Origin: Mollicutes bacterium Phil14 | GTDB lineage: Bacteria > Bacillota_I > Bacilli_A > ML615J-28 > CAG-698 | Assembly (NCBI GenBank): GCA_001940985.1 | Contig: MSHB01000022.1 | Span: 99,393 to 163,392 of the forward strand | DNA length: 64,000 nt | Direction: 5' to 3' | Shown: positions 3,917 to 58,223 of the stretch, piece after piece | Position numbering within the stretch: position 1 is the stretch's first letter | How the letters are laid out: each line of letters opens with the position of its first letter | Made by a program: the position numbers and the translations under genes | The notes under the pieces: model-generated | What the model saw: only the letters and a program-made list of their open reading frames with translations | Database searches by the model: none | Told to the model about the DNA's origin: nothing

Positions 3917-4672
3917 TCAAATAAATGCTCTTTTTAATCTTTGCCAAAAATCATCACTATAGTGACTTAATATTATAATTTTTTTATCTGACAAACTACA
4001 TTTTATTTCTTTTACATCTTTAATATTTAAACTCTCACCATCAACACTAATATATATGTTACTATTGTTTTTAGGAACTAATACTACTTTATTTTTTTGA
4101 CTTAAGATAATTGGTGAGGCTATTGTCTTATAGACTCTATTATTAATTGAAGCTATTTCGGTTAGTTGAAAGGCCTTTAGACTTGGATCTATGACACTTC
4201 CTCCTAATGATTTATTATAAGCTGTAGAACCACTTGGGGGAGATACTAAAAATCCCGTTCCACGAAATGTTTCTAAAAGTTTTTCATTAATGAAAACATC
4301 TATTATTTGAGTGTGAATAGGATTAGTAATCGCTATTTCATTAACAGCTAATCCCTTTTTTTCGTTATTAATCTCATACTCTAAAAGAGAAAATTCATTA
4401 TCTATTAATTTATTATTAATTATCATATCTAAAGTATAATCTAGCTCTTCTTTTTCAAAGCTAGTAAAGAAACCTAATGTTCCTCCGTTTATTCCAACAA
4501 ACTTTACCTTATCTAAAATATCTTCATATTTATGAATAGCTTTAAGCATTGTTCCATCTCCCCCAAAAGAGAAAACAACTTCAGGATTTCTTTCATCTAA
4601 CTTAAAGCCCTTTTTTAAAAATAAACTTTTATCAACATCTATCTTACCATTACTAAAGATTGCATATTTCAT
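3917..4672 (-). CDS. nadK: NAD kinase
   Basis: FSFGGDGTMLKAI, GINGGTLGFFT, SPPSGSTAYNKSLGGSVIDP motifs. Confidence 0.95.
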   Translation of the reverse strand: MKYAIFSNGKIDVDKSLFLKKGFKLDERNPEVVFSFGGDGTMLKAIHKYEDILDKVKFVGINGGTLGFFTSFEKEELDYTLDMIINNKLIDNEFSLLEYEINNEKKGLAVNEIAITNPIHTQIIDVFINEKLLETFRGTGFLVSPPSGSTAYNKSLGGSVIDPSLKAFQLTEIASINNRVYKTIASPIILSQKNKVVLVPKNNSNIYISVDGESLNIKDVKEIKCSLSDKKIIILSHYSDDFWQRLKRAFI

Positions 4673-6499: not shown

Positions 6500-6639
6500 T
6501 ATATCACTCCTTTACGTTAATTATATTTTACAATATTTTTCATTTTTTTAAAAGCATTTTTTTAAAAACTATTTACTTTTTTTAAATATTATAATATAAT
6601 ACTATAAAGCATACATAGGATTAGTAATATAATTTTACC

Positions 6640-6838
6640 TTTTAAGAGAGACTTTGGTTGGTGTAAAAAGTCATTGTAATTATATGAATGGACCTACTAG
6701 TTGCAAGGAGGAAATGCCTTGTCGTTTAGTAAAGCGTTAATTTACTTTAGAGTGCAAAATATTTTGATATTTTGAATTAAGGTGGTACCGCGAATTTTTC
6801 GTCCTTAGAAATTATTTCTAGGGGCTTTTATTTTTTAT
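6640..6838 (+). ncRNA. T-box leader, Trp specificity, upstream of trpS
   Basis: T-box core AAGGTGGTACCGCGAATTTTTCGTCCTTAG; specifier region gaa-TGG-acc; terminator TTAGAAATTATTTCTAGGGGCTTTT; followed by trpS. Confidence 0.93.
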
Positions 6839-10924: not shown

Positions 10925-11105
10925 TTATAATAAATAAAAGTCCTCAGAAATAACTTCTAAGGACGAAAAATTCGCGGTACCACCTTAGTTTTTAGATTAA
11001 AAAATCTAAACACTCAATTATTAATAAGCTCATAAGGTGTAATTCTAAAATACCTTTGTTTAAGTTTCCACCAACCACTTAAATCTCTACTTTTCAACAA
11101 GTATT
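10925..11105 (-). ncRNA. T-box leader, Tyr specificity, upstream of tyrS
   Basis: Minus strand: CTAAGGTGGTACCGCGAATTTTTCGTCCTTAG core; specifier gaat-TAC-acc; terminator hairpin GTCCTTAGAAGTTATTTCTGAGGAC. Confidence 0.92.
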
Positions 11106-11130
11106 TTATACTATTTCCTTAATCAACGCT

Positions 11131-12123
11131 TTATTTAGTTGATTCTCTCCAAGCAATGTCATATGCTAATAAAATCTTATCAGCTTTATGATGTCTTGCT
11201 TCTTCATCTTTCATTAATTCAGTCAAATAACTCATCGCTTTATTTCCCATTTCATAAACAGGAATTTCTGCACATGTTAATTTTGGATTAGATAATAATG
11301 CATATCTAGTATTTTGGAATCCAATTACTTGAAGTTGATCTGGAACTTTGATTCCTTTCTTAACAGCTACATTCATTAATGAAATAGCAATTGAATCACG
11401 AACAACCAAAGCAACATCAGGAACACTTTCATCAAGCATTTTATTAAAAAATACTTCATTGACACTTATATCACCACTTGAATGAATAATCTTTGGTTCT
11501 AAACCTGCTTCTCTCATAGCACGTGAATAACCACGTTGTTTCATTTCATTAAGTGTATATATATGTTCAGTTCCAATGAACACTATATCTTTATTACCAC
11601 GATCAATCATTTCTTTAGTAATCTTGTATGCACAATCTTCATAATCAACACATACACTACCGATTGTATCTTTTTGTGATAATGTATTTACAAACACTAC
11701 AGGAACTGGTGTATATTCTATTTGACGATAAATATCTTTTGTCATTTCATCGTTCATAAACAGAATTCCATCAACACTTGAGGCAATTACTTCACCCCAT
11801 AAGTCTTCTTCCATTTTAGGGTCACGGTTAATAAACAAACGAATTGTATAACCGAATTTTTTGGCTGCATCATCAATACCTTGTATCATTTCAGCAACAC
11901 TGGCTCTTGAAAGCTCTGGGATAACAACAGCTACAGTTGTAGAACGACGACTCGCAAGTCCTCGAGCATTAGCATTAGGTTTATAACCTTTATCTTTAAT
12001 AATTTTTAAGACTTTCTCTCTTGTAGCCTCTTTTACTTTTTCTGGATGGTTCAACACACGAGAAACTGTTGCCAAACTAACGCCGGCAGCACCAGCAACG
12101 TCATAAATCTTCGCTTGATTCAT
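11131..12123 (-). CDS. ccpA: LacI family regulator, catabolite control protein A-like
   Basis: IYDVAGAAGVSLATVSRVLNHPEKVKEATREKV HTH plus periplasmic-binding-type effector domain. Confidence 0.88.
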   Translation of the reverse strand: MNQAKIYDVAGAAGVSLATVSRVLNHPEKVKEATREKVLKIIKDKGYKPNANARGLASRRSTTVAVVIPELSRASVAEMIQGIDDAAKKFGYTIRLFINRDPKMEEDLWGEVIASSVDGILFMNDEMTKDIYRQIEYTPVPVVFVNTLSQKDTIGSVCVDYEDCAYKITKEMIDRGNKDIVFIGTEHIYTLNEMKQRGYSRAMREAGLEPKIIHSSGDISVNEVFFNKMLDESVPDVALVVRDSIAISLMNVAVKKGIKVPDQLQVIGFQNTRYALLSNPKLTCAEIPVYEMGNKAMSYLTELMKDEEARHHKADKILLAYDIAWRESTK

Positions 12124-29665: not shown

Positions 29666-30043
29666 TTAATCCCACCAATCATTGTAGGCGCTCGACACAA
29701 TCGGAGCAATACTACTAGCCTTTCCTCCACCAACAGTTTGAGCAATTTGAATAACTTTTTGAACGGTATTTAATGTTTTATTTAAATCATCGGGATTAAT
29801 TTTTTTAATATATGATACCACATTTTTCAAACTGTCCATATTAATGGATAAATTGTTCCCGTTTTGGCTTACAACTTTTTGTGAAGTATCATTCTGATAT
29901 TTTTCCCATTGTGGATCAGTATCACCATACAAAACCCATTCTTCATAAATGTTTTGCCAAGTTCTTTTTCCATTTCTTACTTCTTCTCTAATTTTTGTGT
30001 GATTAGAAACAAAAGTTTTAAATTCATCCATTCTTGATTGCAT
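29666..30043 (-). CDS. YlbD-like putative spore coat protein
   Basis: MDEFKTFVSNHTKIREEVRNGKRTWQNIYEEWVLYGDTDPQWEKY. Confidence 0.78.
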   Translation of the reverse strand: MQSRMDEFKTFVSNHTKIREEVRNGKRTWQNIYEEWVLYGDTDPQWEKYQNDTSQKVVSQNGNNLSINMDSLKNVVSYIKKINPDDLNKTLNTVQKVIQIAQTVGGGKASSIAPIVSSAYNDWWD

Positions 30044-45139: not shown

Positions 45140-47392
45140 CTACTTAACTTTTTCCATAATATAGGCTTCAATGCGATCTCCTTCTTTGATATCATTATAG
45201 TTTTCAATTGTTAAACCGCATTCATAACCATTTTTAACTTCTTTAACATCATCTTTAAATCTCTTAAGTGAAGATAGTTTTCCTTCATAAATTACTATGC
45301 TATCACGAATAAGACGAATATCTGAATTTCTAGTAATCATACCACTAGTGATATAGCAACCAGCAATTGTTCCGACTTTACTAGCTTTAAATATACTTCT
45401 TACTTCTGCTTCACCAATTACTTTTTCTTCAAATACTGGGTCTAACATACCTTTCATAGCAGCTTCAATATCTTCTAGTAATTTATATATTATGTTATAT
45501 AAACGAATTTCTACAGACTTCTCTTTAGCAGATTGCATGATTGAAGCATTAGGGCGAATATTAAAACCAATAATAATTGATTTTGAAGCTATTGCTAAAG
45601 TTATATCAGTTTCTGTAACTGTTCCAACACTAGCTCTAACAACATTAATTTTTACACCTTCAACATTAACTTTTTCTAAAGAACCTTTTAAAGCTTCAAC
45701 TGAACCTTGAACATCAGCTTTAATTATTAAATTTAATTCTTTTTGTGAATCATCTAAAGCATCAAACAAGCTTGCAAGCGATACTTGCTTATTACTATTT
45801 TTCTCTAAATTGAAAGCTCTCATACTTCTTTCTTCACTAATCAATCTAGCAGTTTTTTCATCGTCAAATACCATGAATCTATCTCCAGCTTGAGGTACAT
45901 CTACTAATCCTGTAACCTCAACAGCTTTTGATGGACCAGCACTTTTCAAATTTGCTTTAGTTTCATCTTGCATTGCTCTTATTTTACCATAAGTATTACC
46001 AACAACTACAGGATCTCCAACTTTAATAGTTCCATTTTTAACAAGTAAAGTAGCAACAGGTCCACGTCCTTTATCAAGTTTAGCTTCTATTACCATACCC
46101 ATACCTAAACGATTAGGATTAGCACGATAATTTTCCATTTCAGCAGTTAAAACTATCATTTCTAGTAAATCATCAACGCCTTTACCAGTAAGAGCTGAAA
46201 TTGGAACAAAGATTGTATTTCCTCCCCATTCTTCAGCAATCAAATTATATTGTGATAATTCTTGTTTGATTTTATCAACATTTGCACCTGGTTTATCCAT
46301 TTTGTTAACAGCAACTATAATTGGCACTTTGGCAGCTTGAGCATGATCTATAGCCTCTCTAGTTTGTGGCATTACACCATCATCAGCAGCAACCACTAAA
46401 ACAACTATATCCGTAATCTCTGCTCCTCTTGCTCTCATTTCTGTAAATGCTGCATGTCCTGGAGTGTCAATAAATGTGATATATTTATCTTTTTTCTTTA
46501 CTTGATAAGCACCAATGTGCTGAGTGATTCCACCAGCTTCACTTTGAGTAACTTTAGAATTTCTAATTGTATCTAGTAAAGTTGTTTTACCATGGTCAAC
46601 ATGTCCCATAATTGTTACAATTGGAGGTCGATCAACTAATTCACTTTCATCATCTTCAATAACTAAATCTTCAAATTTTGTTATATCTTCAGAAACTTTA
46701 TCTTTTAAAGTATATCCAAATTCATCTGCTAAAATTTCAATAATATCTCTATCTAGAACTTCTGTTGCAGATATCATATAACCCATTTCAACTAGTTTTC
46801 TAACTATATCCCCATAGTTTTTTCCTAAGCCTTCAGCAATTTGAGCAGGGCTCATTCCTGGAACATAATACAAAACATTGTTTTGTTCTTTCTTCTTATC
46901 GCCAACATTTGCTTGACGATTTTCTTTTTTATTATTTTTTTTCTTTTTTACATTTTTAATTCTTGTATACTCTTTTTCTTTAGTTACATAATCATTATAA
47001 GAATCATCGTATACTCTAGTTAATTCAACCTCAACTTCAGTCTTTTTATTTTCTTCTTTTTTAGGTTCTTTATTAACTTTATTTTCTACCTTTTTTGGCG
47101 CATCATTTTTCTTACTTTCTTCTTTTTTAGGACTATTATTTTCAAAAGTCTTTTCTTTTGGTTTTTCTACTTGTTGAGGTTTTTCTTTAATCAATTCTTT
47201 CTTTGTTTCCTTAACTTCAACTTTTTTTGCTTTAATTGGTTTGATTTCAACCTTATATAATTTGCTTAATTTCTTAATTACATCAGCAGGAATTTCTGTA
47301 TCAATATTTGCATCAATACCAACATTTTGTAATTTCTTTAAAAGTTCTGCTTCTGAAACTTTCAACACTTCTAATATTTCTTTAACTTTCAT
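45140..47392 (-). CDS. infB: Translation initiation factor IF-2
   Basis: [45 protein letters not shown]. Confidence 0.98.
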
Positions 47393-49552: not shown

Positions 49553-49601
49553 TTTTAAAGGAGTGAGATTAACTCACTCCTAGTTTTCACTTTCTACCTA
49601 C

Positions 49602-49630
49602 ATTATACTATAATTACAATATAATGTCAA
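49602..49630 (-). promoter_or_regulatory. Sigma-A-type promoter for the rimP-nusA-infB operon
   Basis: Minus strand TTGACA-N17-TATAAT, exact consensus. Confidence 0.85.
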
Positions 49631-49647
49631 TTGTTTTCATGCTTTGT

Positions 49648-49980
49648 TATAAAAATAGCAAACTAAAAAGAGTTTTGCTATCCGCCTTTAGATTTCTCTA
49701 AAGAAATTTTTGTCTAATGACTGCTAATTTATAGCAAGTAGACCACTTTATTAAATATAAAGTTTTTAATTAACATTTGCCAACCACTAGTACATAAAAA
49801 GCAAATTTCTTTAACTATATAGGGGGGATGATGTATAGTAAACTAAACCACTTTATATATATTAGTCAAAAACTGTTAACTTTTTGTAAAATAAACTAGC
49901 ACACCTAACTCATCATTTACATAAAGTTCTTAATTGTTTTTAATTCTTTTTCACCTTGAACTTAACCATCTCCTTAGCCT
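49648..49980 (-). ncRNA. Candidate structured non-coding RNA (~330 nt), family unassigned
   Basis: Own promoter (minus TTGACA-N17-TAAAAT, 49987-50015), terminator ATAGCAAAACT-CTTTTT-AGTTTGCTAT-TTTTAT (49651-49681), several nested hairpins including CTTTAGA-GAAA-TCTAAAG; no convincing ORF. Confidence 0.6.
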
Positions 49981-49986
49981 AACATA

Positions 49987-50015
49987 ATTTTACAATATTT
50001 TTTTATATTTGTCAA
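49987..50015 (-). promoter_or_regulatory. Sigma-A-type promoter of the ncRNA candidate
   Basis: Minus strand TTGACA-AATATAAAAAAATATTG-TAAAAT (17-nt spacer). Confidence 0.7.
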
Positions 50016-50054
50016 CAAAAAAGATACCAAAAGAGTTCTTTTCTATATCAAAAT

Positions 50055-58007: not shown

Positions 58008-58115
58008 AAAAGTCCTAAAACAGGACATACAAGAAAAAATATTTGTATGCCTTAGTGCTCGGATTTACGGCCCAAGCGTAGAAACAATCAATCCATATTA
58101 TTGATCATATAAGAC
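58008..58115 (-). ncRNA. Guanine (purine) riboswitch upstream of guaB, with terminator hairpins
   Basis: Minus strand GTCTTATAT...AATATGG-ATTGATTG-TTTCTAC-GCTTGGG-CCGTAAA-TCCGAGC-ACTAAGGC; P1 GUCUUA/UAAGGC; C at the position equivalent to C74. Confidence 0.88.
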
Positions 58116-58223
58116 TTTTTGTAATTATATCATTTTCATTAATAATAAGCAAACCTTTTTTATTTTTTTACAATAAAGAGATATACCGCTATAGTATATC
58201 TCTAGTAATTAAAATTATTTATA

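Follow-up and report, generated by a model that had tools for sequence, protein, structure and literature searches.

The window, that is, the whole 64-kb stretch of DNA that was analyzed (29% GC), belongs to a genome of 1.69 Mb in 26 contigs (hereafter G000) and carries on its minus strand a gene for a trmH-type RNA methyltransferase (50795-50055), followed after a gap of 500 nt by rimP (49552-49079), nusA, and infB. Among named organisms, the trmH product is closest to proteins of Firmicutes bacterium ZOR0006 (43% identity) and of Candidatus Scatoplasma (38%), which points to an AT-rich Firmicutes lineage, probably within the Bacilli. The trmH–rimP gap is filled by the candidate under study, which lies upstream of the rimP promoter and whose features are collected in table 1. 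Elsewhere in the window, Rfam cut-offs are exceeded by two T-box leaders and by a purine riboswitch (6607-6809 on the plus strand, 10956-11135 and 58033-58134 on the minus strand). The infB gene contains, in the N-terminal part of its coding sequence (47045-47143), 33-bp repeats of 11 codons that are rich in Lys and Asn.

Table 1. Predicted features between trmH and rimP, with positions in the window and, for most hairpins, folding energies.
Feature	Positions	Strand	Description
Terminator-like hairpin after trmH	50016..50047	minus	GATATAGAAAAGAACTCTTTTGGTATC + T6; weak, -4.3 kcal/mol
Candidate promoter	49987..50015	minus	TTGACA (50015-50010), 17-nt spacer, TAAAAT (49992-49987); 11/12 consensus matches
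Candidate transcript, predicted non-coding	49652..49981	minus	~330 nt; start near 49981 inferred from the -10 box
5' hairpin	49924..49963	minus	AAGTTC...GAACTT; weak, -3.2 kcal/mol
Hairpin with C-rich apical loop	49814..49839	minus	ACTATA-CATCATCCCCCCTA-TATAGT; C6 run at 49822-49827
Hairpin	49745..49763	minus	ACTTTAT-ATTTA-ATAAAGT; -3.9 kcal/mol
Hairpin with internal loop	49712..49743	minus	GTCTA / TGCTA-TAAAT-TAGCA / TAGAC; -7.8 kcal/mol
Hairpin with GNRA tetraloop	49686..49703	minus	CTTTAGA-GAAA-TCTAAAG; -5.3 kcal/mol
Intrinsic terminator	49650..49682	minus	ATAGCAAAACT-CTTTTT-AGTTTGCTAT; ~11-pair stem with one bulged A, then T-run; about -8 kcal/mol
rimP promoter (outside the candidate)	49602..49630	minus	TTGACA-17-TATAAT; 12/12; conserved across the family
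rimP-leader hairpin (outside the candidate)	49559..49581	minus	AGGAGTGAG-TTAAT-CTCACTCCT + T-run; conserved across the family

A predicted transcription unit beside the rimP signals

An earlier note on this DNA had proposed that a gene-free interval holds an independent transcript, bounded by a near-consensus promoter and an intrinsic terminator with its T-run and followed by a separate promoter for rimP. All of these elements were recovered on the minus strand. Taken alone, the 11/12 promoter is unremarkable because shuffled sequence leads one to expect 5.2 promoters of this kind per window, against 10 found in the 64 kb. As for the pair, a promoter followed by a same-strand terminator at 150-450 nt occurs once in the whole window, namely at the candidate, and in none of four shuffled windows, the terminator hairpin with its T-run being present on the correct strand only. 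The minus strand of the interval holds no ORF of at least 20 aa, and the five of its six frames that were tested gave no Pfam similarity. The promoter–terminator pair, these two absences, and the family-conserved promoter that rimP has for itself support the idea of an independent transcript, and we regard a non-coding transcription unit of its own as a fairly probable prediction for this interval.

The hairpin downstream of the rimP promoter (AGGAGTGAG-n-CTCACTCCTTTAA) displays a compensatory stem change in one family locus, L048 (GAGTGAAC/GTTCACTC), and agrees with the known rimP-leader, an attenuator family described previously (PMC2965389); the stretch that holds promoter and leader (49553-49640, minus strand) goes unreported by the Rfam gathering search. 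Since both are conserved in the family, rimP expression should be independent of the candidate promoter, and since rimP thus retains its own conserved promoter, the candidate is not needed as a rimP leader.

Known RNA families and folding

The earlier note could not match the interval to the signature motifs of tmRNA, RNase P, SRP, or 6S RNA and looked to Rfam for a name. No family is named there: at the gathering score the candidate region has no match, and at E <= 10 the families of Rfam 15, T-box and riboswitches included, gave chance-level matches only. The four housekeeping RNAs were all located elsewhere in the genome. Indeed, tmRNA (RF00023), type B RNase P RNA (RF00011), and SRP RNA (RF00169) have no match in the region, with genes for the first two at G000:C7:21603-21954 and G000:C21:153076-153417, respectively, and an above-cut-off match for the third at G000:C1:28836-28931. 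For 6S RNA, a family-specific model built from nine family members detected nothing significant in the window and gave one 165-bit match at G000:C21:40379-40581. The Rfam 6S model itself misses the 6S RNA of this genome though it finds 6S in two congeners. In the congeners G001 and G003, the 6S gene adjoins what looks to be an arginyl-tRNA synthetase gene (argS).

With regard to folding, the note's wording of a structured RNA proved too strong. The hairpins are there, the GNRA-capped CTTTAGA helix, the ACTTTAT/ATAAAGT helix, and the AAGTTC/GAACTT helix being found as described, but the overall folding excess is modest: the whole transcript reaches a z-score of -2.0 (11 of 300 shuffles fold as well), which becomes -1.3 when the terminator is left out, and the two halves differ, with -0.7 for the 5' half and -2.2 for the 3' half. 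The RNA is therefore not strongly structured. Both helices of the GTCTA/TGCTA element exist, but an internal loop separates them and they do not form the one continuous nested stem that had been described. Likewise, the sequences of ATGATG and CATCAT would allow them to pair, but the predicted minimum free energy (MFE) structure lacks this helix and leaves CATCAT single-stranded within a hairpin loop. No significant internal duplication was detected within the candidate (34 of 300 shuffles were as good). Taken together, the interval is a plausible transcription unit, and its RNA would be weakly structured.

An orphan at a variable junction

DNA searches, which covered 40 relatives and a set of 43 genomes from the order, found the candidate once in its own genome, so that it is no dispersed repeat, and no homologue in the other 42. 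Besides the window itself, these searches returned only AT-rich matches of 23-62 nt, several of which fall on the promoter stretch. Some of the compared genomes are incomplete; the absence is thus firm wherever the junction was read, and less so across the remainder of a genome. Beyond the order, the phage collection gave no match, the plasmid collection one match of 46 nt only (E 0.1), and the viral contigs no match to two exact patterns.

The junction itself is variable. In G001, about 95 nt separate trmH from rimP. In G003, whose NusA is 86% identical, rimP is preceded by a lipoprotein gene; trmH lies on another contig, with a different spacer behind it and then the beginning of a similar lipoprotein gene. 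In other genera, this place is taken by a short gap or by different genes. We considered whether the candidate retains remnants of the G001 and G003 spacers or has sequence in common with them, and discarded this idea, as its similarity to them is no better than that of shuffled sequences. By sequence comparison, the candidate is thus an orphan, absent from all examined relatives, and because these relatives are without the sequence altogether, no covariation can be shown.

The junction in G003 has particulars of its own. Between trmH and the lipoprotein gene (L054, about 2335-2425) lies a short stretch with promoter-like and terminator-like signals (ACTCCCTTGTATTAGGGAGTTTTTT), perhaps a small RNA, perhaps an attenuator acting on the lipoprotein gene. 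The two very similar lipoprotein gene starts (L019 3177-4030 and L054 2544-2665) share the same signal-peptide region on two contigs, one adjoining trmH and the other preceding rimP; a tandem duplication at which the assembly broke may account for them.

The C-rich loop, competing readings, and known parallels

The most distinctive feature of the candidate, which the earlier note does not mention, is the C-run CAUCAUCCCCCC: the minus-strand segment CATCATCCCCCC (49822-49833) holds six C in a row, no other C or G run of this length occurs in the window, and all six C have an unpaired probability of 0.99-1.00 in the predicted ensemble, within the apical loop of the ACTATA...TATAGT hairpin. Since runs of this kind number about two per shuffled 64-kb window, a given stretch of 330 nt would hold one with a chance of about 1%; as the run was seen after the fact, this figure is no more than suggestive. 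The hairpin that carries it is, taken alone, not very stable (-1.2 kcal/mol).

We propose that the candidate may be a young, species-specific small-RNA gene, with its own promoter of sigma-A type and its own intrinsic terminator, that would yield a non-coding transcript of about 330 nt. The working part of this RNA is likely a hairpin loop displaying the unpaired CAUCAUCCCCCC, which, by analogy with RNAIII, IsrR, FsrA, and further small RNAs of low-GC Gram-positive bacteria, could block the translation of some mRNAs by pairing with their G-rich Shine-Dalgarno regions. To the whole of this mechanism, acting in trans through the C-rich loop, we give a probability of roughly 40%; we infer the transcription of the candidate, the pairing of its loop with mRNAs, and its importance to the cell. 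At present, the candidate is an orphan of an ordinary, known kind, probably a local regulatory RNA and no new class. That it should be an undescribed 330-nt RNA of one species, born at a variable junction and regulating several mRNAs through one CAUCAUCCCCCC loop laid over Shine-Dalgarno sequence and start codon, appears doubtful to us.

Predicted pairing gave a mixed picture of the loop's possible targets. The starts of the 67 window genes, which were chosen by script and of which at least one is wrong, pair with the loop at -6.2 versus -4.9 kcal/mol for internal coding sequence. On average, however, 183 of 200 shuffled loops of the same composition pair with these starts as well or better. 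Some predicted starts pair strongly (AGGGAGGG, about -15.6), and starts with AGGGAGGG or GGGGAGG, such as those at 30043 and 33732 on the minus strand, count among the predicted targets. The strongest predicted pairing, with the gene at 3920-4549, was set aside as an artefact of a wrong start inside an apparent GGDGT coding motif. No exact G6 site anywhere in the genome is clearly placed as the Shine-Dalgarno sequence of a gene. Elsewhere in the family, no dispersed copies of the loop CATCATCCCC turned up among the loci read, all 30 of which fall in open frames of at least 80 codons.

Two other readings of the interval are serious rivals of a small-RNA gene. The interval may be neutral or decaying DNA that remains from a gain at this variable junction, its promoter- and hairpin-like signals having arisen by chance or come from a lost gene; we hold this to be unlikely, yet it is the foremost of the alternatives. 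The differing contents of the trmH–rimP junction among relatives (the spacer of G001, the lipoprotein gene of G003, the other genes of other genera), the candidate's lack of conservation, and the readiness with which AT-rich sequence yields -10 and -35 boxes and short hairpins, as the expected number of promoters per window illustrates, all speak for it. Against it stand the joint spacing of promoter and terminator, which the shuffles do not reproduce, the single genomic copy, which leaves no place for a repeat family or a MITE, and the five tested frames with no trace of a protein family. Less likely again, the interval could be a long 3' UTR of trmH, possibly with a small RNA derived from it, if RNA polymerase passes a weak first terminator and stops at 49650. 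Transcripts of trmH may leak into the candidate in this way, given that the GATATAGAAAAGAACTCTTTTGGTATC hairpin directly after trmH is weak (its six T notwithstanding), and the trmH genes of G003 and G001 seem to carry a stronger hairpin immediately past their stop codon. However, a near-consensus promoter sits right behind trmH, and the hairpin-T6 element precedes this promoter.

Two further possibilities appear more remote. Transcription from 50015 that passes the terminator could feed the rimP operon, which would make the interval a cis-acting leader or attenuator of rimP-nusA, with possible base pairing between the RNA's 5' end (GGCUAAGGAG) and the terminator; the MFE structure indeed pairs the 5' end of the RNA with the 3' half of the terminator, and rimP-nusA-infB operons are often attenuated (PMC2965389). 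We nevertheless consider this improbable in view of the 12/12 promoter and conserved rimP-leader that rimP has downstream of the terminator, just as in relatives free of the insert. Finally, the plus strand might encode a very short toxin-like peptide (MMYSKLNHFIYISQKLLTFCKIN, 49828-49899) after AGGGGGG, the minus-strand RNA then being its antisense antitoxin. Although the G6 run stands directly before ATGATG, only 0-3 bases separate it from the start codons, the peptide has no stretch resembling a membrane segment, and the plus strand offers a promoter of only 9/12 and no terminator, all of which makes this reading very improbable.

If the candidate is transcribed and functional, it would exemplify the gain of a regulatory RNA gene by a single species, in an AT-rich Bacilli lineage of uncultured type from which, to our knowledge, hardly any small RNA has been described. 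A functional candidate would also offer a small test case for the origin of small-RNA genes, the empty junction being preserved in a close relative.

From a comparative perspective, the candidate resembles the housekeeping 6S, tmRNA, RNase P, and SRP RNAs as a stand-alone RNA of 100-400 nt with predicted structure, but all four of them sit elsewhere in this genome. The rimP-leader (PMC2965389) adjoins the candidate and shares its position upstream of rimP-nusA-infB, but the two sit on opposite sides of the rimP promoter, the leader, a short and conserved hairpin rich in GC, downstream and the candidate upstream, and relatives have the rimP-leader without the candidate. The nearest parallels in mode of action would be small RNAs of AT-rich Gram-positive bacteria, in which the binding of Shine-Dalgarno sequences by single-stranded C-rich loops is established (PMC9410917; PMC2837412): IsrR has three C-rich regions, and it has been argued that the G-rich stretches of AT-rich genomes are mainly Shine-Dalgarno sequences (PMC9410917), while the C-rich loops 7 and 13 of RNAIII act on coa mRNA (PMC2837412). 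Unlike RNAIII, IsrR, FsrA, RoxS/RsaE, and LhrC, the candidate has one C-run only and has neither sequence similarity to known RNAs (no Rfam match) nor conserved relatives. It nevertheless shares with them an unpaired C-run in a hairpin loop within an AT-rich genome and the layout of a stand-alone gene with its own promoter and intrinsic terminator, both predicted here, and its length is within the range of RNAIII (coordinates up to nt 514; PMC2837412).
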